This document shows positions 1,001 to 63,554 of a stretch of DNA of 64,000 nt, piece after piece (position 1 is the first letter of the stretch; the number at the start of each line of letters is the position of its first letter). Made by a program: the position numbers and the translations under genes. Source of the DNA: Brachybacterium sp. EE-P12. GTDB taxonomy: Bacteria > Actinomycetota > Actinomycetes > Actinomycetales > Dermabacteraceae. The stretch is from contig NZ_QXCP01000005.1 of the NCBI RefSeq assembly GCF_003711805.1, positions 186,001 to 250,000 of the forward strand. The letters are read 5' to 3'. The notes beneath the pieces were generated by a model. The model had not been told where the DNA came from. It searched no databases and worked only from the letters and a program-made list of their open reading frames with translations.

Positions 1001-2719
1001 TCAGCCAGCGGGGCGGCCGGCGGCGGCCTCGTCGAGCACCCAGATGGTGGACTCCAGGCCCCGCACGGCGGAGGCGGGCACTGCCCACGGGTCCACGGCG
1101 GCGTGCGCGTCGCGCACGGCCTCGGCCTTCTCGGCCCCGGCCACGAGCAGCGCCACATGGCGCGAGGAGTTCAACACCGGCCAGGTCAGCGAGATCCGCT
1201 CCGACGGCGGCTTCGGCGAGCCGGTCACCGCGACGGCGCTGGCGAGCACGTTCTCCTGCCCGGGGTGCTGCGGGAACAGCGAGGCGATGTGGCCGTCCGG
1301 CCCCATCCCCAGCAGCAGCACGTCGAAGAACGCCTGTCCGCGGGTGCGGAAGGGCTCGTCGCCGCCCATCTGGTCCAGCTGCTGGCCGTACCAGGCCGCG
1401 GCGTCCTCGAGGGACATGCCGTCGGCGGGGGAGGGCATGATGTGGACGTTCCGCGCCGGGAGCCCGTCCTGCTCGCGCAGCACGTCCAGGAGGCTCTTGC
1501 GCACGCCCACCTCGTTGCGCTCGCTGGAGTCGGGGTCGACGAAGCGCTCGTCGCCCCACCACAGGTGCAGTCGGGTCATGTCGACCCCCGCGGCGCGCAG
1601 CGCGGCGGGCAGCGCCGCCGCGGTGAGGGTGCCGACGGTGCCGCCGGTGAGCACCAGGTGAGCCTGCGGCCGGGACTCGAGCGCCTCGGCGAGCTGCTCC
1701 GCGGCGGCGGAGGCGGCGGTCGCGGCGACCGCGTCCGCGTCGGCGACCACGACGTCCTGCGGGGCGGGCTTGCCGCTCGCGAAGGTCGCGGGGTCGTCGA
1801 TGCCGGAGAAGGCGGCGCCGAGCACCTCGCCGTAGACCTCGTCGGGGTCCAGGCGGCGCAGCTCCTCGGTGACGAGCTCCGCGAGGGTGCGGCGCGGCAT
1901 CGTCACGTGCTGACCCTGGTCGTCCCCGGGCAGCCTCATGATGATCGAGTCGTCGCTGACGCGGCTGAGCTCGATCGTGCCGTCCTCGCGCACCAGGCGC
2001 ACCGCGTGCACGCCGGCGAAGTCGGGATCGGCCTCGGGCGGCGGCACGATCGAGGCCGTCACGCCGAGGGTGTGCTCGAGCCAGGTCGCCATCAGCAGCA
2101 CCGAGGGGTCGCCCTCGGTGCCGGCGACCTCGATCGCGGTGGGGGTCGAGACCGGCGGGACCTCGTAGGCGCTCGCGACGAGGCCGCGCCAGCGGGTCAG
2201 ACGCGCCCAGGCGAAGTCCGAGTCGCCGCTGGCGTAGCCGCGGCGCAGGCGCTTGAGGGTCCCCAGCGGGTCCGCGCAGGCGGCCGAGTCGGTGATGCGG
2301 CGCTGGGACATCGAGCCGAGCACGTCATGGACGGGGGAGGACGGGGCGTTCTCCGGCCACCAGGTGACGATCGGCGCATCGGGCAGCAGCAGCGCCATGA
2401 CCAGGGTGTCCAGGGACCACAGCACGTCTCCGCGGGCCTGGAGGATCACGATCTCGCCGGCGCCCGCGTCCCGGCCCACGCGGATCTCCGCGTCGAGGCC
2501 GGAGGTCTCGGCGTCAGGATCGGCGTCCACCACGATGACCCGCGCGGGATGCTCGTGGCTCGCGGCGATAGCGGCCTCGAGCGGCTCCTCGATGTCCTCG
2601 GTCGAGATGATGATCAGGGTGAGGACCCGGCCGATGGTGTTCTCGCCGAAGGTCTCCCGCATCTCGGTCATGGTCTTGTCGACCGCGGACGCGGTGGTGT
2701 CGGTCAGGGTGGTGATCAC
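1001..2719 (-). CDS. opcA-pgl: Fused OpcA (G6PDH assembly protein) and 6-phosphogluconolactonase
   Basis: A single uninterrupted 572-residue frame joins two oxidative pentose-phosphate proteins. Residues 1 to about 310 match OpcA, the actinobacterial factor needed for glucose-6-phosphate dehydrogenase assembly or redox response (GENTIGRVLTL, VTWWPENAP, RRITDSA). Residues about 318-572 are a full 6-phosphogluconolactonase, which hydrolyses 6-phosphogluconolactone: LTGGT at 357-361, WWGDERFV at 387-394 and GMGPDGHIASLFP at 471-483. The linker at about 310-322 is short and alanine/proline-rich. The GTG start overlaps the zwf stop (GTGA), so the enzyme for the preceding step is translationally coupled. 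In most actinobacteria opcA and pgl are separate adjacent genes. Both halves look intact, so I read this as a true fusion, barring a sequencing error at the junction. Confidence 0.93.
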   Translation of the reverse strand: MITTLTDTTASAVDKTMTEMRETFGENTIGRVLTLIIISTEDIEEPLEAAIAASHEHPARVIVVDADPDAETSGLDAEIRVGRDAGAGEIVILQARGDVLWSLDTLVMALLLPDAPIVTWWPENAPSSPVHDVLGSMSQRRITDSAACADPLGTLKRLRRGYASGDSDFAWARLTRWRGLVASAYEVPPVSTPTAIEVAGTEGDPSVLLMATWLEHTLGVTASIVPPPEADPDFAGVHAVRLVREDGTIELSRVSDDSIIMRLPGDDQGQHVTMPRRTLAELVTEELRRLDPDEVYGEVLGAAFSGIDDPATFASGKPAPQDVVVADADAVAATAASAAAEQLAEALESRPQAHLVLTGGTVGTLTAAALPAALRAAGVDMTRLHLWWGDERFVDPDSSERNEVGVRKSLLDVLREQDGLPARNVHIMPSPADGMSLEDAAAWYGQQLDQMGGDEPFRTRGQAFFDVLLLGMGPDGHIASLFPQHPGQENVLASAVAVTGSPKPPSERISLTWPVLNSSRHVALLVAGAEKAEAVRDAHAAVDPWAVPASAVRGLESTIWVLDEAAAGRPAG

Positions 2720-4269
2720 GGTCGCCTCCAGGTGCGCCCGTCACGGGCGAGCATGTCGTGTGCGGTGTCGGGGCCCCAGGAGCCCGGACGATAGGGCGCG
2801 GGGTCGAGGTTCTCGGCCCAGAACTCGGTGATGGGGTCGAGGATCTTCCAGGAGAGCTCGACCTCCTTCTGGCGCGGGAACAGCGGCGGGTCTCCCAGCA
2901 GCATGTCGAGGATCAGCCGCTCGTACGCCTCGGGGGACTCCTCGGTGAAGTTCATGCCGTAGGCGAAGTCCATCGTCACGTCCCGCACCTCCATCTGGGT
3001 GCCGGGCACCTTGGAGCCGAAGCGCATGGTGACGCCCTCGTCGGGCTGGACGCGGATCACGATCGCGTTCTGGCCGAGGTCCGCGGTGTCGGTCGAGTGG
3101 AAGGGCAGGAACGGGGCGCGCTTGAACACGACCGCGATCTCCGTGACCCGTCGGCCGAGGCGCTTGCCGGCGCGCAGGTAGAAGGGCACACCGGCCCAGC
3201 GGCGCGTGGCGATGTCAAGGCGCATCGCGGCGAAGGTCTCGGTGGTGGAGTCGGCGGGGATGCCGTCCTCCTCGAGATAGGGGCGCACCTCCTCGCCGCC
3301 CTGCCAGCCGCCGACGTACTGGCCGCGCGCGGTGTGCAGCGCGAGGTCCTCCGGCAGCTCGACGGCGGCGAGCACCTTCTCCTTCTCGGCGCGCAGGTCG
3401 CTCGCGCGGAAGGTGACCGGCTCCTCCATCGCGGTGAGGGCGAGCAGCTGCAGGAGGTGGTTCTGGATCACGTCACGGGCGGTGCCGATGCCGTCGTAGT
3501 AGCCGGCGCGGGAGCCGATGCCGATGTCCTCGGCCATCGTGATCTGCACGTGGTCGACGTAGTTCGCGTTCCAGATCGGCTCGAACAGCTGGTTCGAGAA
3601 CCGCAGCGCCATGATGTTCTGGACGGTCTCCTTGCCCAGGTAGTGGTCGATGCGGAAGACGTCCTCGGGGCGGAACACCTTCTCGACCACGTCGTTGAGC
3701 TCCCGCGCGGAGGCGAGGTCGTGCCCGAACGGCTTCTCGATGACGACGCGGCGCCAGGAGCCGTCCTGCGGGGTGTTCAGCCCCGAGTTCGCGAGCTGCC
3801 CGCACACCTGGGGGAAGGCGTCCGGCGGGATCGAGAGGTAGAAGGCGTGGTTGCCGCCGGTGCCGCGCGTGCGGTCCAGCTCGCTGACGACCTCGGTGAG
3901 CCGCTCGAAGGCGGCGGTGTCGTCGAAGGTGCCGGTCACGAAGCGCAGACCGCCGCGCAGCTGCTCGAAGACGCTCTCCTCGAAGCCGGTGCGGGAGTGC
4001 TCGGACACGGACTTCTCGACGTAGTCGGCGAAGTCGTCGTCGGACCAGTCGCGACGGCCGTAGCCGACGAGGCCGAAGCTCGGCGGGAGCAGCCCGCGGT
4101 GGGTGAGGTCGTAGATCGCCGGCAGAAGCTTCTTGCGGGCGAGGTCGCCGGTGACGCCGAACATCACCATGGAGCTGGGCCCGGCGATCAGGGGCAGGCG
4201 ACGGTCGCGCGGATCCCGCAGCGGGTTCGGCGCGCCGGCCGCGGTGGCGGGGGTGGGGGAGTCGGTCAC
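2716..4269 (-). CDS. zwf: Glucose-6-phosphate 1-dehydrogenase
   Basis: Oxidises glucose 6-phosphate to 6-phosphogluconolactone with NADP, the entry step of the oxidative pentose-phosphate pathway. With the GTG start at 4269 the product is 517 residues, normal for the family. The N-terminal Rossmann motif GVTGDLA is at 38-44, EKPFG at 178-182 and the substrate/catalytic signature RIDHYLGKE at 206-214. A GAAAGGA ribosome site precedes this GTG; a longer frame reaching 4305 has no such site and adds an unconserved extension. The gene follows tal on the same strand past a hairpin (4300-4331) and is coupled to opcA-pgl by a 4-base overlap. Confidence 0.97.
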   Translation of the reverse strand: MTDSPTPATAAGAPNPLRDPRDRRLPLIAGPSSMVMFGVTGDLARKKLLPAIYDLTHRGLLPPSFGLVGYGRRDWSDDDFADYVEKSVSEHSRTGFEESVFEQLRGGLRFVTGTFDDTAAFERLTEVVSELDRTRGTGGNHAFYLSIPPDAFPQVCGQLANSGLNTPQDGSWRRVVIEKPFGHDLASARELNDVVEKVFRPEDVFRIDHYLGKETVQNIMALRFSNQLFEPIWNANYVDHVQITMAEDIGIGSRAGYYDGIGTARDVIQNHLLQLLALTAMEEPVTFRASDLRAEKEKVLAAVELPEDLALHTARGQYVGGWQGGEEVRPYLEEDGIPADSTTETFAAMRLDIATRRWAGVPFYLRAGKRLGRRVTEIAVVFKRAPFLPFHSTDTADLGQNAIVIRVQPDEGVTMRFGSKVPGTQMEVRDVTMDFAYGMNFTEESPEAYERLILDMLLGDPPLFPRQKEVELSWKILDPITEFWAENLDPAPYRPGSWGPDTAHDMLARDGRTWRRP

Positions 4270-4299
4270 GATGGTCCTTTCTCGGACACGGGACGGCGG

Positions 4300-4331
4300 G
4301 AGCACGGATCCGCCGCGGCGGATCCGTGCTC
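4300..4331 (-). terminator. Hairpin between tal and zwf
   Basis: 15-base arms (4300-4314 and 4317-4331) are perfect inverted copies with an effectively 4-base loop. It sits directly after the tal stop and 30 bases before the zwf start, so it may end or attenuate transcription from tkt-tal and leave zwf-opcA-pgl partly independent. Confidence 0.75.
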
Positions 4332-4342
4332 CGGCGGGCGGA

Positions 4343-5455: not shown

Positions 5456-5597
5456 GACGTTCCTTCCGGGCGCTGGGCGCCCTGGGTCGCATCTGCTGTC
5501 GTCGTGGTCAACGCCCTCGTGGGACTCCGGCATCCAGGAGGTGTCCGGAGGAACACCGCGGCGGCCGCAGCGCGAGGGGATGGGGGAGGGGAGAGAG

Positions 5598-8023: not shown

Positions 8024-8974
8024 GTGACCGCCACCCAGGGTGCATCGCTGCGAGACGTTGGCCGGGACGGCGGGCGTCCTCCGCGGACCCTCCGCTCCGT
8101 CCTCGGCGCGTATGTCGCGCTGACCAAGCCGCGGATCATCGAGCTGCTGCTGATCACGACGGTCCCCACCATGTTCCTCGCGGCCGGGGGGTTCCCCTCG
8201 CCGTGGCTGATGATCGCGACGATGCTCGGCGGGTACCTCGCCGCCGGCGGCGCGAACACGCTGAACATGTACCTCGAGCGCGACATCGACGCGAAGATGA
8301 AGCGCACCCGCAACCGGCCGATCCCCTCGGGCGCCGTCACTCCGCGGGCCGCGCTGATCTTCGGGCTCACCCTCTCGGTGGTCTCCACGCTTTGGCTGGG
8401 CCTGCTGGTCAACTGGATGTCCGCCGCTCTCGGGCTCGGCGCCATCGCGCTGTACGTCGTCTTCTACACGATGATCCTCAAGCGCCGCACCAGCCAGAAC
8501 ATCGTCTGGGGCGGCATCGCGGGCTGCATGCCCGTGCTGATCGGCTGGTCGGCGGTGACCGGCACCGTCTCCTGGACCGCGGTGCTGCTGTTCCTGGTGA
8601 TCTTCTTCTGGACGCCCCCGCACTACTGGCCGCTCGCGGAGAAGTTCTCCTCCGACTACGCCAGGGCCGGCGTGCCGATGCTGCCGGTGGTCTCCTCCCG
8701 CACCAACGTCGCCGGCCAGATGCTCCTGCACACCGGCCTCATGATCGCCTCGAGCCTCGCGATCATCCCGCTGGGGGAGACCGGCTGGGTGTACGGGATC
8801 GTCGCACTCCTCTCCGGCGCCTGGTTCGGCTTCCTGGTGGTGCGCTACGCGCTGCGCGTGCGCCGCGGGCTGAGCGGGAAGGCGCTGGGGCCGATGAAGG
8901 TCTTCCACGGCTCGATCACCTATCTCACCGTGCTCTTCGTCGCCCTCGCGATCGACCCGTTCGTCACGTTCTGA
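8024..8974 (+). CDS. ctaB: Protoheme IX farnesyltransferase (heme O synthase)
   Basis: Adds a farnesyl group to heme B to make heme O for the aa3-type cytochrome oxidase. It is a UbiA-family membrane protein of 316 residues with eight to nine hydrophobic segments. The [17 protein letters not shown] segment (34-50) and the aspartate-rich prenyl-diphosphate site (N81 to about R96, with ERDIDAKM) are present, as is the second motif region [12 protein letters not shown]. The GTG at 8024 is chosen over an upstream ATG at 7886 because AGGAAGGA precedes it and conservation starts soon after. It sits next to tkt, a common actinobacterial position. ctaA is not in the window. Confidence 0.94.
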
Positions 8975-8978: not shown

Positions 8979-9998
8979 ATGAGCGCCGGGGAGGCCCCGC
9001 GCCCGGAAGGGGACGGACCGTCCTCCCGCCCGGGGGATCACCTCCGCCCGGGCGACGTGCGGATCCTCGAGCAGTATCTCGGCCACCTCCGGGTGGAGAG
9101 AGGCCTGGCGGAGAACACGCTCGCCGCCTACCGACGTGATCTGCGCCGCTATCTCGCCGATCTCTCGCGCCGCGACGCGGATCCCGCCGCCGTGGACCCG
9201 CAGGAGGTGGGGGAGTGGCTGCAGGCCCTGCGCACCGGGGCCGACGGCGGCGCCCCGCTGTCGGCGTCCTCGGCCGCCCGTGCCCTCGCCGCGGTCCGCG
9301 GGCTGCACTCCTTCCTCGACGCCGAACGGGTCTCCGCCACGGGCGACCCCTCCCGGCTCGTGCCGAGCCCGGCGCTGCCGCGCCGCCTCCCGCACCCGCT
9401 CACCATCGACCAGGTCGAGGCGCTGCTCGAGGCCGCGGGACGGCCCGGCACCGGACGGGACGCGACCGAGCGGGCGCTGCGCGACCGGGCTCTGCTCGAG
9501 CTGCTCTACGGTCTCGGGGCGCGGATCTCCGAGGCGACGGGGCTCGATCTCGACGACGTCGATCTCCGGGAGCGCTCCGCGGTGCTGCGCGGCAAGGGGG
9601 ACAAGCACCGGATCGTGCCCGTGGGGCGCTACGCCCTCGAGGCCCTCGGGGCATATCTCACGCGCGGGCGTCCCGCGCTGGCCTCGCGAGGGCGGGGCAC
9701 GGCCGCGATCTTCCTGGGCGCGCGCGGCACCCGCCTGACCCGCCAGGCCGCCTGGCAGGTGGTCCAGCGCTGCGCGCGCGAGGCCGATCTGTCCGATCTC
9801 GCGGAGCCGATCAGCCCGCACACGCTGCGGCACTCCTACGCGACCCATCTGCTGCACGGCGGGGCGGACGTGCGCAGCGTCCAGGAGCTGCTGGGCCACG
9901 CCTCGGTCACCACCACCCAGCTGTACACCCAGGTGACGGTCGACTCGCTGCGGGAGACGCATGCGGGCGCCCACCCCCGCGCCCGGCGGGGGGCTTAG
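8979..9998 (+). CDS. xerD: Tyrosine recombinase XerD-like
   Basis: Site-specific recombinase expected to resolve chromosome dimers at dif. The 339-residue protein has the SAM-like core-binding domain (about 25-115) and the catalytic domain with the full set R182, K206, H281, R284, H307 and nucleophile Y316 ([13 protein letters not shown]). A 20-residue proline-rich N-terminal extension is present. It starts 4 bases after the ctaB stop and is followed by parA, the conserved actinobacterial xerD-parA neighbourhood. A candidate target, dif, lies in this same window at 44923-44950. Whether the cell also has a separate xerC cannot be seen here. Confidence 0.93.
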
Positions 9999-11044: not shown

Positions 11045-11934
11045 TGGCCGCCGAGCGTCCCCGGCGGGGGAGCGGCGGGGGGAGCCGTCCCGCCCGCCGC
11101 CGCAGCGCCTTCACCCCGCCCAAGCAGGTGCGCCTGCGCGACGCGGACGGGACCCGACGCCCGGGCCCGTCGACCGACGGGGAGGGCGAGGCGATCCACC
11201 GCGAGGGCGGCGAGCGGCTGCAGAAGGTCCTCGCCCGCGCCGGCTGCGGTTCCCGTCGTGCCTGCGAGGCGCTGATCGCCTCCGGGCGCGTCCGTGTCGA
11301 CGGGGCCGTCGTGCACGAGCAGGGGGTGCGCATCGACCCCGCCGTCCAGGTGGTCCACGTCGACGGGCGCCGCCTCCAGCTCGACGAGTCGAAGCTCACC
11401 CTCGTGCTGAACAAGCCGCGCCGGGTCGTCTCCGCGATGAGCGACCCCGAGGGACGGCGCGACCTGACCGAGTTCACCGCCGCCCACCCGCAGCGGCTGT
11501 ACCACGTGGGCCGCCTCGACTACGAGACGGAGGGCCTGCTGCTGCTGACCAACGACGGCGAGCTCGCCCATCGCCTGACCCATCCGAGCTTCGAGGTCGA
11601 CAAGACCTACGTGTGCCGCTTCGACGCCCCCGGCGGCCCGCCCCGCGGCCTGGTCAAGGCTCTGCGCGAGGGCGTCGAGCTCGAGGACGGGCCGGCCCGC
11701 GCGGATCGCGCCAGGGTCCTCGCCCAGGACGGCCGGGAGGCCGTGGTCGAGGTGACCCTGCACGAGGGGCGCAACCGCATCGTGCGGCGGATGTTCGCCT
11801 CCCAGGGCTTCGAGCTGACGGCCCTGGTGCGCACGCGCATCGGATCGGTGCTCCTGGGGGACCTGGCGCCCGGCGCGACGCGCGAGCTGACGGACCGGGA
11901 GCTCGGCACGCTGATGGCGGAGGTCGGGCTGTGA
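11044..11934 (+). CDS. rluB: 23S rRNA/16S rRNA pseudouridine synthase, RluB/RsuA family
   Basis: Converts a specific uridine of rRNA to pseudouridine. The 296-residue protein has a basic N-terminal tail (1-55), an S4 RNA-binding domain (about 57-115, RLQKVLARAGCGSRRACE) and the catalytic domain with GRLDYETEG at 156-164, where D159 is the catalytic aspartate. The ATG shares one base with the parA stop. The tyrA GTG overlaps its own stop, so rluB sits inside a tightly coupled operon. Confidence 0.94.
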   Translation: MAAERPRRGSGGGSRPARRRSAFTPPKQVRLRDADGTRRPGPSTDGEGEAIHREGGERLQKVLARAGCGSRRACEALIASGRVRVDGAVVHEQGVRIDPAVQVVHVDGRRLQLDESKLTLVLNKPRRVVSAMSDPEGRRDLTEFTAAHPQRLYHVGRLDYETEGLLLLTNDGELAHRLTHPSFEVDKTYVCRFDAPGGPPRGLVKALREGVELEDGPARADRARVLAQDGREAVVEVTLHEGRNRIVRRMFASQGFELTALVRTRIGSVLLGDLAPGATRELTDRELGTLMAEVGL

Positions 11935-21788: not shown

Positions 21789-21873
21789 GGAACGACGGTA
21801 TGCACGAGCCCCGGGGCCGCACCTCCCCCGATCGGAGGAGGACTATCCGGTGGTGCTCCGTGCCCGGGCACGG

Positions 21874-28978: not shown

Positions 28979-29136
28979 AGATCCTCCGTCACCGGAGGAC
29001 CGAGGAATACAGTACCCCGCTGCGGGCTCGGGAGCGAATCGAGAGGGGCGTGACCTGCGGCACCCGTGGCGCAGCCGGGCTCCGGCACGTGAATGGGATA
29101 GAGCGGAGCCTGAGCCCGTCGGTCTCCCCCAGCTCC

Positions 29137-40016: not shown

Positions 40017-40132
40017 GACCTCCGGGGCGACTGAGCGGCCGGTGCGGGCCGGCGCGGGGTGACCTCCTGGTCAACGGCCCGCCGCCGCGAACTATTCCGC
40101 CGCCGGCGGGGACGGGGGAGAGGTAGCGCACC

Positions 40133-44922: not shown

Positions 44923-44950
44923 ACTTTACATAACGTGCATTATCGGCGCG
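44923..44950 (-). other. dif: Candidate dif site (XerCD recombination, replication terminus)
   Basis: On the minus strand the 28 bases read CGCGCCGATAA (XerC arm), TGCACG (6-base centre), TTATGTAAAGT (XerD arm). The arms are 11 bases with an inverted ATAA/TTAT core. The XerD arm matches the widely conserved TTATGTTAAAT at 9 of 11 positions. It is the most AT-rich stretch of an intergenic gap in otherwise very GC-rich DNA. The polarity of GGGGGAG motifs reverses here. Chromosome dimers would be resolved at this point by the XerD-like recombinase, probably activated by FtsK. Confidence 0.88.
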
Positions 44951-54218: not shown

Positions 54219-56926
54219 AGCGCCTCGCGCACCCCCGCACCCTGATCGTCGTCCTGGTGCTGCCGCTGCTGGTGGCGGGCCTGGGCATGTGGGCCCTCAG
54301 CGGCCGCGTGGACCGGCTCGACGCCGTGCCCGCGGCCGTGGTGAACCTCGACGAGGGCGCGGAGATCACCGACGCCGACGGGGAGGCGCAGACCGTCCCC
54401 TTCGGGCGCCTGCTCGCCGGCTCGCTCACCCAGCCCGGCACCGTCGAGGACCAGGACGCCCCGGAGACCACCGGCTTCGACTGGCAGCTGACCAGCCAGG
54501 ACGACGCCGAGCAGGGGCTCAAGGACGGCAGCTACTCCGCCGTGGTCGTGATCCCGAAGGACTTCTCGGAGCACCTGGCCACCCTCGGCACGCCCGAGGC
54601 GACCCAGGCGATCCTCGAGGTCACCACCAATGATGCGAGCGGCCAGATCAACGCGCTGGTGGGCACCGCCGTCGCCGAGGCCTCGGCGAGCACCATGGGC
54701 GGGCAGATGGCGCAGCAGTACCTCGACCAGCTCTACATCGGCTTCAACGACCTCGGCGACGGCTTCTCCGATGCGGCCGACGGCGCCGAGGAGCTCGCCG
54801 GCGGCACCTCCGACCTCGCCGAGGGCACCTCCGAGCTCGCCGGCGGCACCCGCGAGCTCGCCGAGGGGACCACGCAGGCCGCCGAGGGCGCCCGCCAGTA
54901 CTCCGGCGGGGTGTGGAGCTTCGCCGACGGCACCTGGCAGGCCGCCGACGGCACCCGCACCCTCGCGGACGGGCTCGACGACCTCGCCACCGGCAGCGAG
55001 GACCTCGCCGACGGCGCCGGCGAGCTCCGCACCGGGCTGCGCGGCACCGACGACCAGCCCGGCCTGCTCACCGGCGTCGAGCAGCTCGCCGCCGGCGTGG
55101 AGGGCGACGGCACCGCCGAGAACCCCGGCCTCGAGGAGGGCGCCGACCAGCTCGCCACCGGGCTCGAGCAGTTCGCGGGCGGCGTCGAGCAGGCCGGCAC
55201 CGCGGTCGCCGGCGACGGCACCGACCAGAACCCCGGCCTCGCCCCGACGGCCCGCCAGGTGAACCAGGGCATGACCGAGCTCGGCGACGGCGCGCAGCAG
55301 GCGGCCGACGGGCTGGCCGGCACCGAGGACCAGCCCGGCCTCGCCCAGGGCGCCGAGGGCGTGGTCGCCTACGCCGAGGGCGTGGACCAGGCCGCCGGCG
55401 GCCTGGACACGGCTCTGGAAGGCGACAGCAGCGAGACGAACCCCGGCATGACGGCGATGTCCGCATCGATGCAGGAGAGCGCCTGTGCTCTCGCCGAGCG
55501 CTATCCCGATGATCCCCAGGCTGCCGCGCTGTGCCAGCAGGCGGAGGGCATGACCGGCTATGTCGACGGCGTCGACGAGGCCCGGGACGGTCTGCGCACC
55601 GTCGTGGACGGCGACGGCACCGCGCAGAACCCGGGACTCGCCGCGACCGCGCAGGGCGTCGGCGAGGGCGCGAGCGCCGCCGCCGACGGCGTCCAGCAGA
55701 TCGCCGACGGCATCAACGGCACCGACCAGCAGCCCGGCCTCGTCCAGGGCACCGAGGGCATGGTCACCTACGCCGAGGGCATCGAGACGGCCTTCGCCGG
55801 CGACGGCACCGAGTCCAACCCTGGCCTGACCGCCTCGGCCCAGCAGCTCGCCACCGGCGCCCGCTCGAGCGCCGACGGCGCCGGCGAGCTCGTCACCGGC
55901 GTCACCGGGCTGCGGGACGGCCTCACCCAGTACGCCGACGGCGTGGACCAGCTCGCCGACGGCGCGGACCAGCTCGCCGAGGGGACCCGCGGCGCGGCCG
56001 ACGGCGCCGAGGAGCTCGCCGACGGCAGCACGCAGCTCGCCATGGGCGCCGACCAGCTCGGCGACGGCGCGGACCAGCTCGCCGACGGCAACGAGCAGCT
56101 CGCCGGCGGTGCCGGGGAGCTCGCCGATGGCACCGACGAGCTGGCCGACGGCACCGGGGAGCTCGCCGAGGGCAGCGACGAGCTGGCCGGCGGGCTTCGC
56201 GAGGGCGCGGACGAGGTCCCCTCCTACAGCGAGACCGACCGGGACCGCATGAGCGAGATGGCGGCCGCCCCCGTCGGCACCGACGCGCAGCGGCAGAACG
56301 AGGCCAGCGGCGCGGACACCGCGACCTTCCCCTTCGTCACCGCGCTCGCGCTGTGGCTGGGCGCCTTCGCGACGTTCCTGCTGCTGCCGGGCCTCTCGCG
56401 CCGCCTGCTCGACCGGGCGCTGCCGATGTGGCAGGTGGTGCTGCGCTCCCTGGCGCCGGCGGTGGTGATCGCCCTGGTGCAGACCGTCGCGGTGCTCGCC
56501 GTGCTCACGGCGATCGGGATCTCCCCCGTCTCGCCGCTGTCCGTGGGCGTGGTCGCCTTCGCCGGGGCGGTGATGTTCGCGGCCCTGCACCAGGCGCTGC
56601 TGACGGCGCTCGGGGCGCGGATCGGCCGGATCGCCTCGATCGTGCTGATGGTGCTGCAGGTGGTGACCCTGGTCGGGATCGTGCCCGTGCAGACGGCGCC
56701 CGAGCTGCTGCAGTCGGTCAGCTCGCTCATGCCGCTGTCGATCGTCACGCAGGGCCTGGTCCATGCCGCGCTCGGCGGCAGCCTGGTGAGCACCTCGGGG
56801 GTCCTGCTCGCGATCCTCGCCTGGGGCGCGGTCTCGCTGCTGGTGACCTTCGCGGTCTCCCGCGGGGCGCGCCTGGCGAACCGCTCCGAGCACGTGGCCG
56901 TCGGAGCGGTGCCCGCCGCCGCCTGA
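54215..56926 (+). CDS. YhgE/Pip-family membrane protein with long repeat belt
   Basis: Protein of 903 residues. One N-terminal helix (about 7-28), an extracytoplasmic globular region (about 35-180), then about 480 residues of heptad-like ELADGTxELAEGT repeats that should form a long helical rod, and a C-terminal five- to six-helix membrane domain (about 705-890). The topology matches YhgE/Pip proteins, related to phage-infection protein and type VII secretion EsaA. AAGGAG precedes ATG 54215. Export partner of the MMPL protein is inferred from coupling. The substrate is unknown. Confidence 0.9.
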   Translation: MKRLAHPRTLIVVLVLPLLVAGLGMWALSGRVDRLDAVPAAVVNLDEGAEITDADGEAQTVPFGRLLAGSLTQPGTVEDQDAPETTGFDWQLTSQDDAEQGLKDGSYSAVVVIPKDFSEHLATLGTPEATQAILEVTTNDASGQINALVGTAVAEASASTMGGQMAQQYLDQLYIGFNDLGDGFSDAADGAEELAGGTSDLAEGTSELAGGTRELAEGTTQAAEGARQYSGGVWSFADGTWQAADGTRTLADGLDDLATGSEDLADGAGELRTGLRGTDDQPGLLTGVEQLAAGVEGDGTAENPGLEEGADQLATGLEQFAGGVEQAGTAVAGDGTDQNPGLAPTARQVNQGMTELGDGAQQAADGLAGTEDQPGLAQGAEGVVAYAEGVDQAAGGLDTALEGDSSETNPGMTAMSASMQESACALAERYPDDPQAAALCQQAEGMTGYVDGVDEARDGLRTVVDGDGTAQNPGLAATAQGVGEGASAAADGVQQIADGINGTDQQPGLVQGTEGMVTYAEGIETAFAGDGTESNPGLTASAQQLATGARSSADGAGELVTGVTGLRDGLTQYADGVDQLADGADQLAEGTRGAADGAEELADGSTQLAMGADQLGDGADQLADGNEQLAGGAGELADGTDELADGTGELAEGSDELAGGLREGADEVPSYSETDRDRMSEMAAAPVGTDAQRQNEASGADTATFPFVTALALWLGAFATFLLLPGLSRRLLDRALPMWQVVLRSLAPAVVIALVQTVAVLAVLTAIGISPVSPLSVGVVAFAGAVMFAALHQALLTALGARIGRIASIVLMVLQVVTLVGIVPVQTAPELLQSVSSLMPLSIVTQGLVHAALGGSLVSTSGVLLAILAWGAVSLLVTFAVSRGARLANRSEHVAVGAVPAAA
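54780..56205 (+). repeat. Degenerate in-frame repeat region of the YhgE gene
   Basis: Many imperfect copies of a 21-base unit (GCCGACGGC..GAGCTCGCC type) encode the ELADG/QLADG heptads. Interspersed longer blocks recur (GTxxQPGLxxG and GDGTxxNPGL), at about 55020-55340 and 55600-55840, giving a second-order repeat. Length changes by recombination are likely. Confidence 0.85.
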
Positions 56927-56938: not shown

Positions 56939-59900
56939 TCACTGGAAGTCCCTGGACCGGCCCGCCGCGGCCAGGTCCAGGGGCTCCACCGCGTCGGCGA
57001 CGAGGTTCACGGCCCCGGTGCGGTTCTCGACGATCCCGCGCAGCACGACCGCCCGCGCGGTGCGCAGCAGCGCCCGGTGCCGCACCCAGAACCCCTGCGA
57101 GCAGACCACGTTGAGGATCCCCGTCTCGTCCTCGAGGCTGAGGAAGGTGACGTTCCCTGCGGTCGCGGGGCGCTGCCGGTGGGTGATCGCCCCGGCCACC
57201 CGGATCCGGGTGGTGTCCTCCGCCTCGCGGGTCCCGGCGATCGTGAGCACCCCGCTCTTCGTGAGCTGCTCGCGCACGAGCACCATCGGATGGTCCGCCA
57301 GGGTGATCCCGGTGGCCCAGGCGTCGGCGGTGGCGAGCTCCGCGTCGCTCATCCCCGGCAGCATCGGGGCCTGCGCGCCGACAGCGAGATGCGGGAGCGT
57401 GCCCGGGGACTCCTGGGCGGCCGCACCCGCGGCCCACAGCGCCTGCCGACGCGAGCTCGCGAGCCGATCCAGCGCCCCCGCGGTCGCGAGCGCCTCGAGC
57501 TGCCGGGCCGTCAGCCGCACCCGCCGGGCGAGGTCCGGCACCGAGGCGAAGGGCCCGCCGCGCTCCCGCTCGGCGACGATCCCCTCGGCGGTCTCGGTGC
57601 TGATGCCGCGCACCTGGTCCAGGCCCAGCCGGATCGCGGGGCCGCGCGCCGCGGCCTCCCCCTGGACCTGCTCCCCCGGCGCCTCGATCCGGTAGCCGTG
57701 GTGCTCGGCGTCGGTCTCCAGATCGGTGCGGGCACGGGAGGCCAGCACGTCCGGGCCGCGGGTGAGCACGCCGTGGCGGCGGGCGTCGGCGACCAGCGAC
57801 TGCGGCGAGTAGAAGCCCATCGGCTGGGAGCGCAGCAGCGCGGCGGTGAACGCGGCCGGGTAGTGGCACTTGAGGTAGGAGCTCGCGTAGACGAGATACG
57901 CGAAGGAGTAGGCGTGCGACTCGGGGAAGCCGTAGTTCGCGAAGGCGAGCAGCTTGCGGTGGATCGCCTCGGCGTCCTCGCCGGTGATGCCGTGGCGGGC
58001 CATCCCCTCGAAGAGGGCGTCGGACAGCTCGAGCATCTTCTGGGTGGAGCGCTTGGAACCCATCGCGCGCCGCAGCTGGTCGGCCTGGGCGGGGGTGAAG
58101 TCGGCGACGTCGACCACCATCTGCATCAGCTGCTCCTGGAACAGCGGGATCCCGAGCGTGCGGTCCAGGGACTTCTCCAGCTTCGGGTGCAGGAAGGTGA
58201 CCTCCTCCTCGCCGGCGCGGCGGCGGATGTAGGGGTGCACGCTCCCGCCCTGGATGGGGCCGGGCCGGATCAGCGCGACCTCGACCACCAGGTCGTAGAA
58301 CACCCGCGGCTTCAGCCGCGGCAGGGTGGAGATCTGCGCCCGGGACTCCACCTGGAACACGCCCACGCTGTCCCCCGCGCAGAGCATGTCGTAGACCGCC
58401 GGATCCTCCTGCGGCAGGGTGCGCAGCTCGAAGTGCTGGCCGTGGTGCTCGGCGACGATCCGCAGCGCATGGTCGAGCGCCGTGAGCATCCCGAGCCCGA
58501 GCAGGTCGAACTTCACCAGGCCCGCGTCGGCGCAGTCGTCCTTGTCCCACTGCAGCACGGAGCGGTCCGCCATCGCCGCCCACTGCACCGGGCACACCTC
58601 GATCACGGGCCGGTCCGCGAGCACCATCCCGCCGGAGTGGATGCCGAGGTGGCGGGGCGCATCGCGCAGCTGCTGGGCGAGGGTGATCACGTCCGCGGGG
58701 ATGTCGGCGTCGGCGAGGGAGGAGAAGGAGCGCTCGATCCGCTTGGCGAAGGCGTCCTGCGCGCCGGGGTCGTGGCCCAGCGCCCTCGCCGCGTCGCGCA
58801 CGGCGAGCTTCGCCCGGTAGGTGATCACGTTGGCGACCTGGGCGGCGTTCTCCCGCCCGTAGCGGTCGTAGACGTGCTGGATCACCTCCTCGCGGCGGTC
58901 CGAGGCGATGTCGATGTCGATGTCCGGCGGGCCGTCCCGCTCCGGCGCGAGGAACCGCTCGAACAGCAGATGGTGGCCGACGGGTTCGACCGCCGTGATC
59001 CCCAGCGCGTAGCAGACCGCGCTGTTCGCGGCCGAGCCGCGGCCCTGGGCGAGGATCCCCTCCCCGGCGCAGAAGTCGACGATCTCGTGGACGATCAGGA
59101 AGTAGCCCGGGAAGTGCAGATCAGTGATGACCTTCAGCTCGTGGTCGATCTGCGCCCACGCGCCGGGCACCCGCTCGGGTCGTCCCGGCGCGGGCCGCGG
59201 CCCGTAGCGCTCCCGGCCCTCGATCTCCACCAGCTCCACCAGCCAGCTGGCCTCGTCGTGCCCGGCCGGGACCGGGAAGGGCGGCAGGTCCGGGGCGAGC
59301 AGACGCAGGTCCAGGGCGCAGTCCCGGCCGATCCGTGCCGCCTGCGCGATCGCGGCGGGATAGCGGGGCAGCAGCTGCGCCATCTCCTCCCCGCTGCGCA
59401 GGTGCGAGGGCCGGGAGGCGAGATAGGGGTCGGCGCTCTCCAGCGATCCCCCGGAGCGCAGGGCGGCGTGGGTGTCGGCCAGGCGCTTGTCCGTGGGGCG
59501 GGCGTAGTGCGCGTTCGTGCTCGCCACCAGCGGCAGCGAGACCGCGTCGAGCCCGCTCTCCTCGCGCACCAGGCGGGCGCCCTGGGCGAGCGCGTCGTGG
59601 AGCTCGTCAGCCTCTCCCCCGCCGCCGACGATCAGCTCGACGGCGACGTTGCCGGGTCCGAACAGCTCCACCAGGCGGGCGATCTGCTCCGCGGCGGCAT
59701 GCGCGGCGCCCTCGAGGTCCCCCTCGGCCAGGCGCGCGCTCGCGGCCCGGGGCACGGCGCCCTTGCGGCAGCCGGTGAGGATCAGCCAGTGCCCCTCCCG
59801 GGCGATCCGGGAGAGCTCGGCGAGACGGTAGCGGGGCGCGGCCTTCTGCCCGCTGTCCAGGTGGGCGCGGGCGATCGCGGCGGAGAGCCGGCGGTATCCG

Positions 59901-60364
59901 GTCTCGTCCCGCACCAGCACCAGCAGGTGCTCCCCCTCGGGGTCGGGGACGCCGGTGCGGGGTGCGGAGACCACGGGCGTGCTCCCGGCCGTCGACGCGC
60001 CGGGCTCGAGGCCGAGGGTCAGCTCCGCACCGAACACGGTCGCGATCCCCGCCTCGGCCGCGGCCTTCGCCGCCCGCACCACGCCGGGCAGCCCGTCGTG
60101 GTCGACCAGCGCGATCGCGCCGAGCCCGAGGCGGGCCGCCTGGGCGGCCATGTCCTCGGGGCTCGAGGCGCCGTCGAGGAAGCTGAAGTGCGAGTGGGCG
60201 TGCAGCTCCGCGTACTCGACATGGCGGGAGGGACGGTAGGGGTCCTCCGTCCGCTTCCCGGTGTGCTCGACGACGATCGGCGGGGAGACCAGCTCGGCCG
60301 GACGGTCCGAGAGGATCGCCTCGAGGTCCTTCCACGCGGGCGGGCCCAGGAACCAGCGGGCCAT
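56939..60364 (-). CDS. dnaE2: Error-prone DNA polymerase DnaE2 (ImuC)
   Basis: Alpha-subunit-like polymerase of 1141 residues for mutagenic repair synthesis after DNA damage. PHP domain with LHAHSHFSFLDG (54-65), palm domain with catalytic aspartates in PDIDIDIASDRRE at about 478-490, fingers, helix-hairpin-helix region and a C-terminal OB fold. It follows imuB and the 39-residue ORF in the SOS-driven imuA'-imuB-dnaE2 cassette. The ATG shares bases with that ORF's stop (TGATG coupling on the minus strand). It ends 12 bases from the convergent yhgE. Confidence 0.96.
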   Translation of the reverse strand: MARWFLGPPAWKDLEAILSDRPAELVSPPIVVEHTGKRTEDPYRPSRHVEYAELHAHSHFSFLDGASSPEDMAAQAARLGLGAIALVDHDGLPGVVRAAKAAAEAGIATVFGAELTLGLEPGASTAGSTPVVSAPRTGVPDPEGEHLLVLVRDETGYRRLSAAIARAHLDSGQKAAPRYRLAELSRIAREGHWLILTGCRKGAVPRAASARLAEGDLEGAAHAAAEQIARLVELFGPGNVAVELIVGGGGEADELHDALAQGARLVREESGLDAVSLPLVASTNAHYARPTDKRLADTHAALRSGGSLESADPYLASRPSHLRSGEEMAQLLPRYPAAIAQAARIGRDCALDLRLLAPDLPPFPVPAGHDEASWLVELVEIEGRERYGPRPAPGRPERVPGAWAQIDHELKVITDLHFPGYFLIVHEIVDFCAGEGILAQGRGSAANSAVCYALGITAVEPVGHHLLFERFLAPERDGPPDIDIDIASDRREEVIQHVYDRYGRENAAQVANVITYRAKLAVRDAARALGHDPGAQDAFAKRIERSFSSLADADIPADVITLAQQLRDAPRHLGIHSGGMVLADRPVIEVCPVQWAAMADRSVLQWDKDDCADAGLVKFDLLGLGMLTALDHALRIVAEHHGQHFELRTLPQEDPAVYDMLCAGDSVGVFQVESRAQISTLPRLKPRVFYDLVVEVALIRPGPIQGGSVHPYIRRRAGEEEVTFLHPKLEKSLDRTLGIPLFQEQLMQMVVDVADFTPAQADQLRRAMGSKRSTQKMLELSDALFEGMARHGITGEDAEAIHRKLLAFANYGFPESHAYSFAYLVYASSYLKCHYPAAFTAALLRSQPMGFYSPQSLVADARRHGVLTRGPDVLASRARTDLETDAEHHGYRIEAPGEQVQGEAAARGPAIRLGLDQVRGISTETAEGIVAERERGGPFASVPDLARRVRLTARQLEALATAGALDRLASSRRQALWAAGAAAQESPGTLPHLAVGAQAPMLPGMSDAELATADAWATGITLADHPMVLVREQLTKSGVLTIAGTREAEDTTRIRVAGAITHRQRPATAGNVTFLSLEDETGILNVVCSQGFWVRHRALLRTARAVVLRGIVENRTGAVNLVADAVEPLDLAAAGRSRDFQ

Positions 60365-60483: not shown

Positions 60484-62257
60484 AGAGCCCCTCCAGCGTC
60501 CAGTCGCCCGTGCGGGACAGGGCGAGCACCGCGGTCTCCTCGGCGCTCGCGGCGCGGACCACGAGCTGGAGGCGGGCGGCACGTGTCCCGCCCGGAGTCC
60601 ACCAGCGCTCGTCGAGCACGGTGGGGGCGCCGTGGGCGAGCACGGGATAGCCGGAGCCGGCCCGGAGCCCGGCCCGCTGCAGCGCCGACGCGCCGGGGGC
60701 GAGGACCTGCAGCCGGGCCGGCGCACTGCTCAGCAGCCCCCGCGCGGTGACCACCACCGGCTCCCCCGCCGCGTCCTCGAGGCGCACCGACGGTCGTTCG
60801 CGGAACACGGTGGCGGGCACCGGGCGGGGCAGGGTTCCGGGCCAGGGACCCTCTCGCCGTTCGGGCTTCTCGCTGCGCCAGGGCACCAGGGCGACTTCGT
60901 CGGCCAGCAGCCTCCCCCCGACGAGGGCCGGGACCTGCACCGCCTCCTCCCCCGCCAGGCCCTGCGCGCGGGCGAGCGCCCGGGAGGCCCTCTGGGCCGC
61001 TTCCCCCGCGCTGCCCCACAGCGCGGGCGCGTTCTCCCCCGCCGGGGCCAGCTGCAGCGGGTGCAGCCCGATCCGGGTGATCGCCCCGGTCGCAGGACCG
61101 CCGAGCCGCGCCCGGGTGATCCAGCCGTCGCACTGCCAGCGGATGCGGTCCACGACGTCGGCGACGGTGAGCGCCCCGTCGTGCCGCCAGGTGCGCTCCA
61201 TCTCCTCGCCGCCCTCGGTGCGGGCCACGATCCGCAGCCTGGTGCACACCAGTCCCCGCTCGACCAGCATCGTGTGCAGCTGCTCGGCCAGCGGGCGGGC
61301 GATGAAGGCCGCCTGGTCGGTGCGCACCAGCGGGGTCTCGAGCGTCGTCTCGGCCAGCAGCGGCTGGGTCGGGTGGTGCGCGGCGGGCGGGGCGGGCTCC
61401 TGCCCGCGGGCGAGCAGGTGCAGCGTCGCCACGTCCGGGCCGAAGCGGTCGGCGACGGCGGCCGAGGGCAGCGCGGCGAGGTCCCCGAGGGTCGTGATCC
61501 CGAGCCGCTGCAGCAGGTCGACGGTCTCGGCGAGGTCCAGGCGCCGCTGGTCACGGGTGGCAGAAGGCTGGCCGCGGTGCCCCCAGCCGGGGCCGACGGG
61601 GGCGCTGCGCAGGGCGGCGATCGGGTGCGGGGCGAGGTACTCGCCGCTGCGGCCCTCGTGCACGATCCGGCCCGGGCCGGAGGCGAGCAGCGCGGCGAAG
61701 GGGCCGTCGGCGATCCCGACGGCGCAGTCCCAGCCGGTGAGCTCGGCGACCGCGTCGAGGATCCGCTCGGCCAGGCGCCCTTCCCCGCCCTGGTGGCGGG
61801 CCGGACCGCGGGCGGACATCAGCAGCACCCCGGGGCGCAGTACGTCCACCCCGGCGGCGATCGTGTCCACTGCGGCGGCGACCAGCTCGAACAGCGCGGT
61901 CTCCTGCTCGCGATCGGCTTCCAGCACGAGCGCCTCGGGGCAGGCCGCACGGGCGGCGCGGCGCGTCATCCCCGGCCGCACCCCGGCCTCGATGGCCGCG
62001 GTCCCGGCATGGGTGACGCGGTGCTGGTCGAGCAGGATCACCGGGACGGCGGCGAGGTCGAGCGGGGCCGGCGCGGGGGCGTCCTCCTCCCCTGCGGCGG
62101 CCTCGAGGCGTCGCTGGTGGCGGTCCAGCGCGGCCAGCAGCGGCCAGTCCGGGACGGTCACGGCGACGGTGCGGGTCGCCCGGGCGGTGGTGGCGTCGAC
62201 AGCAGCGGGGCCGGCCGCGGCGGGGGCGTGGAGGTCGGCGGGGACGTGCACGCTCAT
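60476..62257 (-). CDS. imuB: ImuB, Y-family polymerase-like mutasome protein
   Basis: Catalytically inactive Y-family polymerase homologue of 593 residues that links DnaE2 to the beta clamp. The N-terminal region (about 30-320) has the palm and finger-like segments (VRPGMTRRAARAACPEA, LQRLGITTLGDLAALP), followed by a little-finger and C-terminal interaction domain. ATG 62257 overlaps the imuA' stop. It is transcribed with imuA' from the SOS box at 63128-63143. Confidence 0.92.
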   Translation of the reverse strand: MSVHVPADLHAPAAAGPAAVDATTARATRTVAVTVPDWPLLAALDRHQRRLEAAAGEEDAPAPAPLDLAAVPVILLDQHRVTHAGTAAIEAGVRPGMTRRAARAACPEALVLEADREQETALFELVAAAVDTIAAGVDVLRPGVLLMSARGPARHQGGEGRLAERILDAVAELTGWDCAVGIADGPFAALLASGPGRIVHEGRSGEYLAPHPIAALRSAPVGPGWGHRGQPSATRDQRRLDLAETVDLLQRLGITTLGDLAALPSAAVADRFGPDVATLHLLARGQEPAPPAAHHPTQPLLAETTLETPLVRTDQAAFIARPLAEQLHTMLVERGLVCTRLRIVARTEGGEEMERTWRHDGALTVADVVDRIRWQCDGWITRARLGGPATGAITRIGLHPLQLAPAGENAPALWGSAGEAAQRASRALARAQGLAGEEAVQVPALVGGRLLADEVALVPWRSEKPERREGPWPGTLPRPVPATVFRERPSVRLEDAAGEPVVVTARGLLSSAPARLQVLAPGASALQRAGLRAGSGYPVLAHGAPTVLDERWWTPGGTRAARLQLVVRAASAEETAVLALSRTGDWTLEGLYD

Positions 62258-63084
62258 CACCCGGCCCTCCGCACGCTCGGCAGGAGCTGCATCGCCGGAC
62301 GCCGCTCCGAGACCGCCGCCGGACGGGCCGCAGCCCCCGCCGACGCACCGGCGGGAACCGCTGCGAGCATCCCGTCCACCTGCGGCAGCAGCACCTCGGC
62401 TGACCGGTGACCGGCGATGCCGCGGCCCTCGGCGGTGATCTCGAGGCGGCGCCGGCGCAGCCGCCCCGAGCCCTGGCCGAGCCCGACCCAGCCCTGGGCG
62501 GCGGCGCGCAGCGTGAGGTCGGCGCGGCCGGGTGGGGCGGCGGCGAGGACGAGGGTGTCGGCGGTGCGGGCCCGGCCCAGCAGGTTGCGCCAGAGAGCGG
62601 GGGCGAGGTCCAGGTCGGGGCCGAGCACGAGCACGCCCACCCCGTCGGCGAGGGCGGAGAGCACCTGGGGGCGCTGCTCGCCGTCCGCCGCGGTGAGGGC
62701 GAGACGGCAGGGGTCCAGGCCCGCGTCCATCGCGGAGCGCAGGCCCAGGTCGGGCATCCCGGCGATCGCGCACCAGGAGTCCTCCCCCGCCGCGGCGACC
62801 GCGAGGGACAGCAGCAGCGAGGTGCTCGCGGCGCCCTCGAGCGCCACGGAGCTGCCGGCGCGCAGGCTCCCGCGCGGGAACAGCGTCTGGAGCGGCCCCG
62901 GGACCGGCAGGCGAGTGCCGAGCCCGTCGTCGGCGGCCTCGGAGACGGAGCGCGCCGAGGGCTGCAGGGCGGTGCGGTCGATCCGTCCGCCCCAGCGGGC
63001 GGCGGAACGCTCGGCCGCACCGAGCGCGGCCCGGGCCCGGGACAGCCGCTGCTCGCGGTCCTCGATCTGCAGGGCGGTGCCCAT
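62257..63084 (-). CDS. imuA': ImuA', RecA-like mutasome protein
   Basis: RecA-related protein of 275 residues required with ImuB and DnaE2 for damage-induced mutagenesis in actinobacteria. It has a RecA-type core without a proper P-loop (FPRGSLRAGSSVALEG in its place), as in other ImuA' proteins. ATG 63084 is preferred since AAGGAGGAG lies just upstream. First gene of the cassette, with the SOS box 44 bases before its start. Confidence 0.9.
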   Translation of the reverse strand: MGTALQIEDREQRLSRARAALGAAERSAARWGGRIDRTALQPSARSVSEAADDGLGTRLPVPGPLQTLFPRGSLRAGSSVALEGAASTSLLLSLAVAAAGEDSWCAIAGMPDLGLRSAMDAGLDPCRLALTAADGEQRPQVLSALADGVGVLVLGPDLDLAPALWRNLLGRARTADTLVLAAAPPGRADLTLRAAAQGWVGLGQGSGRLRRRRLEITAEGRGIAGHRSAEVLLPQVDGMLAAVPAGASAGAAARPAAVSERRPAMQLLPSVRRAG

Positions 63085-63127
63085 CGCGCTCCTCCTTCCG
63101 GCCCTCGCCATTCCTTCGCACACATGT

Positions 63128-63143: not shown

Positions 63144-63387
63144 ACTGTACGCCTCGGCGGGGCGGCGCTCAAGGCGCCCAGGTCGTGACTTCGAACGTGC
63201 ATACGAAGCCTTGGGGAGGGGTGCGACAGACGAGGGCGGGTGGGGTCGTGGGCTGGATCTCGCACGACACATTCCCTCCGCGCCGGGCCCCGCCGTCGTG
63301 CTCGGGGTGCGCGACAGCACCCGGAGCGCTGGGCGCGCCGAGGCGACGAGCCCGAGAGCGGACGGGGGTGTCCGGCGAGAAGTGCGC

Positions 63388-63414
63388 GTACGTGATGTAC
63401 ATGATGTACGTGGA
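63388..63414. repeat. Triple 9-bp GTAC repeat
   Basis: GTACGTGAT, GTACATGAT and GTACGTGGA in tandem, with GTAC cores one 9-base step apart and a self-complementary flavour. It may be a binding site for a regulator that contacts the same helix face at nearly one turn. Confidence 0.6.
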
Positions 63415-63440
63415 GAAACAAACGCATACACCTGTTTCTC
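63413..63440. promoter_or_regulatory. Inverted repeat upstream of the dehydrogenase
   Basis: GAGAAACA (63413-63420) and TGTTTCTC (63433-63440) are perfect 8-bp arms with a 12-base spacer. A regulator of the polyol dehydrogenase or its operon is plausible. Confidence 0.5.
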
Positions 63441-63554
63441 GGGGGTGGCAGGGCAGATGGAGCGGGAGGCGCTCTGTCCGCCGTCGGACCTCCCCTCCTC
63501 CCCCGCCGCGCCTCTGCGATCATGAGACGGACCGCACCCCGAGGAGAGGACTGA

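Follow-up and report, generated by a model that had tools for sequence, protein, structure and literature searches.

GGGGGAG, a polar heptamer pivoting at the predicted dif site, is a likely FtsK-orienting sequence of Brachybacterium and much of its phylum

The heptamer GGGGGAG points toward the predicted dif site from both chromosome arms, and it is likely to serve as an FtsK-orienting (KOPS-like) signpost in Brachybacterium and in much of its phylum. In the window, the whole 64-kb stretch covered by the initial annotation, the plus strand carries 29 copies (1427-44435), all to the left of dif, and a count over the window finds none on that strand to the right of 44435. The minus strand carries 21 copies, two to the left of dif (21823 and 29124) and 19 to the right (45819-63498), such that 48 of 50 copies read dif-ward (binomial, 2e-12). 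The counts given in the initial annotation (29 and 2 on the left, 0 and 19 on the right) are reproduced exactly, as is the switch that it placed between 44435 and 45819, which are the last copy on the left and the first on the right. The features are as follows, with GGGGGAG copies taken from the window count.

44923..44950, plus, predicted dif ACTTTACATAACGTGCATTATCGGCGCG, 28 bp, polarity pivot (core uniqueness, pooled pivot, Frankia likeness)
8979..9998, plus, XerD-like tyrosine recombinase gene, 339 aa (NF001399 and TIGR02225 profile scores)
1427..1433, plus, GGGGGAG toward dif
2333..2339, plus, GGGGGAG toward dif
4255..4261, plus, GGGGGAG toward dif
5582..5588, plus, GGGGGAG toward dif
8773..8779, plus, GGGGGAG toward dif
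9209..9215, plus, GGGGGAG toward dif
11066..11072, plus, GGGGGAG toward dif
11078..11084, plus, GGGGGAG toward dif
13978..13984, plus, GGGGGAG toward dif
16323..16329, plus, GGGGGAG toward dif
17449..17455, plus, GGGGGAG toward dif
17988..17994, plus, GGGGGAG toward dif
21823..21829, minus, GGGGGAG away from dif, exception
22996..23002, plus, GGGGGAG toward dif
27452..27458, plus, GGGGGAG toward dif
28206..28212, plus, GGGGGAG toward dif
28305..28311, plus, GGGGGAG toward dif
29124..29130, minus, GGGGGAG away from dif, exception
29496..29502, plus, GGGGGAG toward dif
29562..29568, plus, GGGGGAG toward dif
29955..29961, plus, GGGGGAG toward dif
33816..33822, plus, GGGGGAG toward dif
35634..35640, plus, GGGGGAG toward dif
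37031..37037, plus, GGGGGAG toward dif
38584..38590, plus, GGGGGAG toward dif
40114..40120, plus, GGGGGAG toward dif
42928..42934, plus, GGGGGAG toward dif
43740..43746, plus, GGGGGAG toward dif
43965..43971, plus, GGGGGAG toward dif
44390..44396, plus, GGGGGAG toward dif
44435..44441, plus, GGGGGAG toward dif, last on left
45819..45825, minus, GGGGGAG toward dif, first on right
46311..46317, minus, GGGGGAG toward dif
48157..48163, minus, GGGGGAG toward dif
49121..49127, minus, GGGGGAG toward dif
51767..51773, minus, GGGGGAG toward dif
51785..51791, minus, GGGGGAG toward dif
53870..53876, minus, GGGGGAG toward dif
54104..54110, minus, GGGGGAG toward dif
56521..56527, minus, GGGGGAG toward dif
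57656..57662, minus, GGGGGAG toward dif
57671..57677, minus, GGGGGAG toward dif
59614..59620, minus, GGGGGAG toward dif
59930..59936, minus, GGGGGAG toward dif
60761..60767, minus, GGGGGAG toward dif
60912..60918, minus, GGGGGAG toward dif
60947..60953, minus, GGGGGAG toward dif
61034..61040, minus, GGGGGAG toward dif
62782..62788, minus, GGGGGAG toward dif
63498..63504, minus, GGGGGAG toward dif

The claim that the word reads toward dif on both arms extends to the whole contig of 412,638 bases, where 203 copies run toward dif and 9 away (binomial, 6e-49) at a density of about 0.5 per kb. GGGGGAG ranks first for polarity among the 6,380 7-mers with any dif-ward excess, a ranking that covers this one complete contig, or 10% of the Brachybacterium genome. 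Genome-wide, 966 copies lie on the plus and 678 on the minus strand (513 and 485 for the reversed word GAGGGGG). The heptamer shows the strand bias typical of KOPS-type words (ori to dif on both arms) and of architecture imparting sequences (AIMS; leading strand).

As with KOPS-type sequences, the orientation switches at dif. Shifting the pivot off dif lowers the polarity score at all seven places tried on the contig. When 96 loci are pooled, the best polarity break is offset from the dif centre by +50 to +200 bp; within 3 kb, 9 of 282 copies are misplaced at the best break and 10 at the dif centre itself. Even allowing up to three mismatches, the 25-base core of the dif candidate occurs only once in the window, and 25 of the 28 bases of the candidate are identical, by eye, to the proposed Frankia dif as quoted in PMC3025954. 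The XerD-like gene scores 337.5 bits for tyrosine recombinase NF001399, above the cut-off of that profile, and 313 bits for XerD TIGR02225, below the cut-off of 329.6; a second Xer-like gene, on contig C18, is likewise below the XerD-specific cut-off. By homology, then, the parts for Xer/dif dimer resolution (a dif-like site, Xer-type recombinases and FtsK) are all encoded.

All 20 additional genomes examined, spanning 14 families, show the same polarity (311:10 when summed); they were chosen for family spread before counting. Sixteen of these came from a phylum-wide scan for the dif pattern and four from elsewhere; because only 29 of the 298 genomes scanned, our own included, contain the pattern, clades with other dif spellings lie outside the sample. 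The signal is weak in genome G233 (6:2, rank 1236). It is strong in one relative (G021, 207:12) and chromosome-wide in a second, complete one (G002, 162:11 over 20 samples along the chromosome). Individual copies turn over without loss of orientation: only 61 of 144 alignable copies are shared with G021, and the unshared copies are still dif-ward (83:2 in our genome, 63:6 in G021). Their excess conservation is modest, with 61/144 shared vs 64/257 for three permuted words (p 0.0005) or 112/422 for all six, and does not reach significance when the comparison is with every word that has a single A or T (35%, p 0.08). In a 9.17 Mb Streptomyces-like chromosome, GGGGGAG is the most polar 7-mer from dnaA outward (75:28) and the dif pattern has no match; thus, dif may be unnecessary for some of the polarity. 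In E. coli K-12 the word is itself 8:1 dif-ward, so such a bias is not unique to actinobacteria.

Density is less uniform than orientation. KOPS and AIMS characteristically become denser toward the terminus or dif, and in AIMS the strand bias grows as well. GGGGGAG density rises toward dif on our contig (rho -0.77, p 0.016), follows a trend that is not significant in G021 (rho -0.46, p 0.21), and shows no rise along the complete G002 chromosome (rho -0.08, p 0.74). The near-dif rise is partly compositional, because the reversed control word, counted over the 20 genomes, also shows mild polarity (76:47) and a higher density near dif.

An FtsK gamma domain is present in 23 of 23 genomes (77-81 bits in our own). 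A sequence comparison with the PDB at E 0.001 relates it to just three entries, all of them FtsK gamma: 2J5O, 2VE8/2VE9 and 2J5P. The predicted DNA-reading helix is near-invariant in all 23 and differs from those of the solved gamma structures. Specifically, among the residues that we take to be the three KOPS contacts (N1296, R1300 and E1303), N1296 is replaced by A and E1303 by D, while R1300 is kept. A literature search for GGGGGAG together with FtsK turned up two papers, neither related by its title. We propose that the gamma domain would bind the heptamer and thereby fix the direction in which FtsK loads, with its motor facing dif; FtsK would then pump DNA toward dif until translocation joins two dif sites, whereupon gamma would activate XerD. 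The KOPS-like reading in the initial annotation stands firmly as to geometry, which is strongly supported by two-arm polarity, a sharp pivot at dif, independence of gene direction, FtsK gamma and a XerD-like gene; its FtsK component is probable.

Could codon usage, the orientation of genes or a mutational strand bias instead produce the pattern as a by-product? Genes do lean the right way, with 236 of 348 called on the contig running toward dif. However, synonymous-codon shuffles yield 110:82 vs the 203:9 observed, and in 300 shuffles the toward-dif count never exceeds 134 and the away count never falls below 62. Copies antisense to genes stand at 65:5 where 100 codon shuffles predict 29:60, in keeping with the earlier assertion that codon bias alone is an insufficient explanation. 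GC skew on the contig ranges from about -0.08 to +0.06 per 20 kb, and no switch in skew is found along it. Nor do other G-rich heptamers switch to the same degree: GAGGGGG stands at 61:60, and 19 of 21 single-substitution neighbours lie at 35-62% toward dif vs 96% for GGGGGAG. The other two neighbours are AGGGGAG, with partial polarity (40:12), and GGGGGGG, with two copies only (2:0). Any of the four bases can flank the heptamer on either side. The polarity is independent of gene direction and codon use, and the polar unit is the heptamer core. Codon bias, gene direction, GC skew and general G-richness are each rejected by these shuffles and word controls, and an origin as a by-product is exceedingly improbable.

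An alternative that we regard as unlikely is a Chi-kind replication or repair word, read by a recombination nuclease and held on the leading strand throughout, with the pivot at dif merely marking where forks meet. The flat density along G002 and the polarity of the Streptomyces-like chromosome without a dif-pattern match agree with it, and Chi is described in a passage of PMC5993296 as strand-biased without a gradient. Against it, the RecC family (PF04257) is not found in the genome by a search that is positive in E. coli. Two adjoining ORFs with PDDEXK_1 nuclease domains resemble AdnAB, which is not known to depend on Chi, and GCTGGTGG, presumably the E. coli Chi word, is evenly split on our contig (33:34). 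Moreover, the pivot holds to about 200 bp of dif over many genomes, tighter than expected of fork meeting points, and density peaks near dif in our contig and in G021. Slightly less probable still is that a different protein of the terminus or of chromosome organisation, and not FtsK, reads the word: to our knowledge FtsK is the sole factor with such geometry, and its gamma helix is near-invariant across the genomes that share the word.

The FtsK-orienting reading may reach further. Tentatively, GGGGGAG could be the single KOPS of the whole Actinomycetota, kept over deep time by a frozen gamma helix and orienting FtsK even on linear, dif-less Streptomyces-type chromosomes; under this proposal its primary role would therefore be to direct pumping of DNA outward from the origin, and service to dif would come second. 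The word is a precise, testable candidate for a chromosome-pump steering sequence in a phylum that includes many members of industrial or clinical importance. Where high-GC genomes lack a usable GC skew, it marks dif and the arms to about 1 kb, and can therefore aid assembly checks and dif finding. Because one DNA word is paired with one altered helix, the co-evolution of KOPS and FtsK becomes directly testable.

None of the established words tried is clearly dif-ward on our contig, whether the E. coli KOPS, Chi, or GAAGAAG (53:60) and GAGAAGGG (9:6), which we take to be the Lactococcus lactis KOPS and Bacillus subtilis SRS words. Like GGGGGAG on the proposed reading, those last two are lineage-specific segregation words, and the L. 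lactis KOPS is also described as a heptamer in a passage of PMC5357621. The E. coli/Vibrio KOPS GGGNAGGG is likewise short, G-rich, non-palindromic and skewed on both arms, reversing at dif, and Brachybacterium resembles its hosts in having FtsK gamma, a XerD-like recombinase and a dif-like site. Its consensus is species-specific, and L. lactis does not share it. GGGGGAG is nevertheless not that KOPS: on our contig GGGNAGGG is not polar (73:73) and GGGCAGGG runs the opposite way (14:42), whereas the same procedure in E. coli K-12 recovers KOPS (GGGNAGGG 21:0; GGGCAGGG the top 8-mer). The E. coli KOPS is also sparser, at one per 13 kb according to PMC5357621 vs about 0.5 per kb for GGGGGAG on our contig.

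The closest relatives are the published actinobacterial AIMS octamers (T/C)GGGGGAG and G(A/T/C)GGGGGA, credited by PMC2830990 and PMC3164646 to Hendrickson and Lawrence 2006 and used to locate dif in Corynebacterium (passages in PMC2830990, PMC3164646 and PMC3350403); the initial annotation, which knew of no characterised equivalent for this lineage, is to be corrected on this point. These octamers contain or overlap GGGGGAG, are likewise leading-strand biased, and are polar on our contig (TGGGGGAG 46:2, CGGGGGAG 119:2). The passages cited here assign them no FtsK role. Whereas the AIMS unit is an octamer, that of Brachybacterium is a heptamer with any flank tolerated: G(A/T/C)GGGGGA stands at 96:4 when followed by G and at 30:24 when followed by A, C or T. 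The skewed word was therefore already known from corynebacteria, and the new elements here are that its core is a heptamer, that it pivots broadly at dif, and that it is paired with an FtsK helix specific to the lineage.

On the contig that carries the window (joined whole, 412,638 bases), a ranking of all words by their excess of copies pointing toward the predicted dif site (window 44923-44950) places GGGGGAG first among 7-mers, with 203 copies toward dif and 9 away (203:9; later counts follow this order). The initial annotation had proposed that this word reverses strand at dif, and the reversal is borne out, with binomial p values of 6e-49 for the contig and 2e-12 for the window. The reversed word GAGGGGG is evenly divided (61:60), no switch of GC skew was seen along the contig, and at each of seven alternative pivots, set about 50 to 170 kb away, the score is lower. 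The polarity of GGGGGAG is real and unusually clean. At the right end of the contig (about pieces L017-L020), which is perhaps acquired DNA, G+C falls to 0.63-0.69 over the final 60 kb, and dif-ward copies number 10, 6 and 6 per 20 kb.

Codon use and gene direction can be excluded as the cause. A simple purpose-written caller yields 348 genes on this contig, 236 of them directed toward dif, and the word is polar whether it lies in the same sense as the gene (115:1), antisense (65:5) or between genes (23:3). When synonymous codons are shuffled inside genes 300 times, with intergenic sequence, overlaps and the terminal codons of each gene unchanged, the mean is 110:82 compared with the observed 203:9. 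Similarly, 100 shuffles predict 29:60 for the antisense copies, opposite in direction to the observed 65:5. Thus codon bias alone is insufficient, as the initial annotation had argued.

Nor do other G-rich heptamers switch equally, a possibility raised at the same time. Among the 21 single-substitution variants on the contig, AGGGGAG is still clearly polar (40:12) and GGGGGGG has only two copies (2:0), whereas the remaining 19 have 35%-62% of their copies toward dif. Several one-base neighbours also point away, for example GCGGGAG (132:201). Either flank accepts any base: polarity holds with a 5′ A (29:5), C (119:2), G (9:0) or T (46:2), and with a 3′ A (48:3), C (60:2), G (69:4) or T (26:0). 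The published actinobacterial octamers G(A/T/C)GGGGGA are polar on the contig mainly when G follows (96:4, versus 30:24 with another base), and therefore the heptamer is the better description.

The genes of interest around dif and for its putative machinery are as follows.
Window 8979-9998: XerD-like recombinase gene, 35 kb from dif
Window 44304-44876: gene with a maltokinase N-cap domain, on one side of dif
Window 45475-46260: DinB_2 gene, assigned by domain, on the other side of dif
Contig C18 of the same genome (piece L001): FtsK gene with alpha, motor and gamma domains

The pivot at dif recurs widely. In a first set of 91 dif loci, including our own copy and duplicates, toward exceeds away in 82, eight are tied (six without any copy), and the sole reversed locus belongs to a record labelled Phycisphaera. 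The loci take in Brachybacterium, Dermabacter, Helcobacillus and many records of Acidimicrobiales, which we take to be a different class from Brachybacterium. In a pooled set of 96 loci, with longer flanks added and 15 duplicates removed, the best switch point lies +50 to +200 bp from the dif centre; of the 282 copies within 3 kb, it misplaces 9, compared with 10 for a switch at the centre itself, and two misplaced copies come from the Phycisphaera record. An actinobacterial-type dif is also present in two Acidobacteria-labelled records and in one each under the labels Saccharibacteria and Phycisphaera (L071, L088, L095, L106). The first three carry dif-ward GGGGGAG (1:0, 6:1 and 2:0) and may therefore be mislabelled bins; the Phycisphaera record has 0:2. 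Immediately beside dif, in window 44435-45819 and the dif loci of 24 Brachybacterium relatives (L027-L049, L051), the word is thin (0.25/kb within 250 bp versus 1.74/kb at 500-1000 bp) at nearly equal G+C, perhaps because this zone is kept clear for the loading of FtsK or for the Xer complex.

Across 20 genomes from 14 families, with flanks of 12 to 20 kb either side of dif (one flank of 4.8 kb in G145), toward exceeds away in every genome, with a sum of 311:10 compared with 76:47 for the reversed word. GGGGGAG ranks first among 7-mers in 11 genomes and within the top 4 in 16; the others are G237 (rank 17), G040 (rank 18), G079 (rank 18, 19:5) and G233 (rank 1236, 6:2). The relative G002 is complete at 3.61 Mb, with dnaA at 1.4 kb and dif at 1.76 Mb; sampling both arms at 20 places, 20 kb each, gives 162:11. 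A single 9.17 Mb contig with central dnaA (G080, L173-L192), by inference a Streptomyces-like chromosome, gave no match to the dif pattern, although another dif spelling is possible; in 20 samples its most polar 7-mer is again GGGGGAG, 75:28 outward from dnaA. One of these samples, 300 kb to the left of dnaA, runs the other way (1:7).

Individual copies turn over while orientation persists. Counts within 200 kb of dif are 207:12 in the relative G021, and of our own 144 alignable dif-ward copies, 61 are shared with it. Unshared copies remain polar, both our own (83:2) and those of G021 (63:6), as expected if orientation is selected. The shared fraction exceeds that of three permuted words (64/257, p 0.0005 by Fisher's test; 112/422 with all six permutations together), but is not clearly higher than that of the full set of one-A/T words (35%, p 0.08). 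Because single words range from 0 to 51%, copy-sharing is the weakest argument. Density on the contig declines from 0.92 toward-copies/kb inside 20 kb of dif to 0.3-0.5 past 80 kb (rho -0.77, p 0.016). G021 is similarly high near dif (1.02/kb), with no significant trend, and none was found in G002. Over the 20 genomes the word thins out between 0.5-2 kb from dif (0.77/kb) and 10-20 kb (0.34/kb), as does the reversed word (0.18 to 0.08). The gradient is thus at best a local one.

The likely reader of GGGGGAG is FtsK. At E 0.001 its gamma domain matches three entries among PDB sequences (2J5O, 2VE8/2VE9 and 2J5P), all named DNA translocase FtsK and presumably from Pseudomonas aeruginosa and E. 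coli. All 23 genomes examined carry the gamma helix GSTSMLQRKL(R/K)(V/M)GFA(K/R)(A/G)GRLMD, which differs from the ASIS.VQR..(K/R)IGYNRAAR of solved FtsK proteins. N1296, R1300 and E1303, which we take to be the KOPS contacts of E. coli FtsK gamma, align here with A, R and D. One study describes three gamma domains binding one KOPS, and a region between helices 2 and 3 that binds KOPS and XerD alike (PMC5052618). Contig C18 also holds, at ~756-760 kb (L219, L221), two neighbouring AdnAB-like helicase-nuclease ORFs with PDDEXK_1 domains.

As a control, the same method was applied to the region up to about 100 kb from dif in E. coli K-12. It gives 21:0 for the KOPS consensus GGGNAGGG and ranks GGGCAGGG as top 8-mer, and thus detects a known KOPS where one is present. 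In contrast, GGGNAGGG is non-polar on our contig (73:73). There (window plus L002-L020), GGGCAGGG points away from dif (14:42). GGGGGAG has few copies in the E. coli control (8:1), and its dif-ward bias is not unique to actinobacteria.

The skew is already known: earlier reports use actinobacterial architecture imparting sequences, octamers that contain or overlap this heptamer, to locate dif in Corynebacterium, with 856 leading and 61 lagging copies in C. aurimucosum (PMC3164646, PMC2830990, PMC3350403). Titles and abstract openings name no actinobacterial KOPS in the two matching Streptomyces and Mycobacterium papers (few subscription papers) or among the best 10 of 260 Brachybacterium or Dermabacter papers. 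A search for GGGGGAG with FtsK, poor in subscription papers, returned two papers, unrelated by title, and recent Corynebacterium and Mycobacterium FtsK work, in the portions available, treats KOPS in general terms only. KOPS are described as a subclass of architecture imparting sequences, most of which lack a known function (PMC5993296). Our best reading is that GGGGGAG would act as the actinobacterial KOPS; to the known skew we add its core of seven bases, the breadth of the pivot at dif and a matching helix in FtsK.
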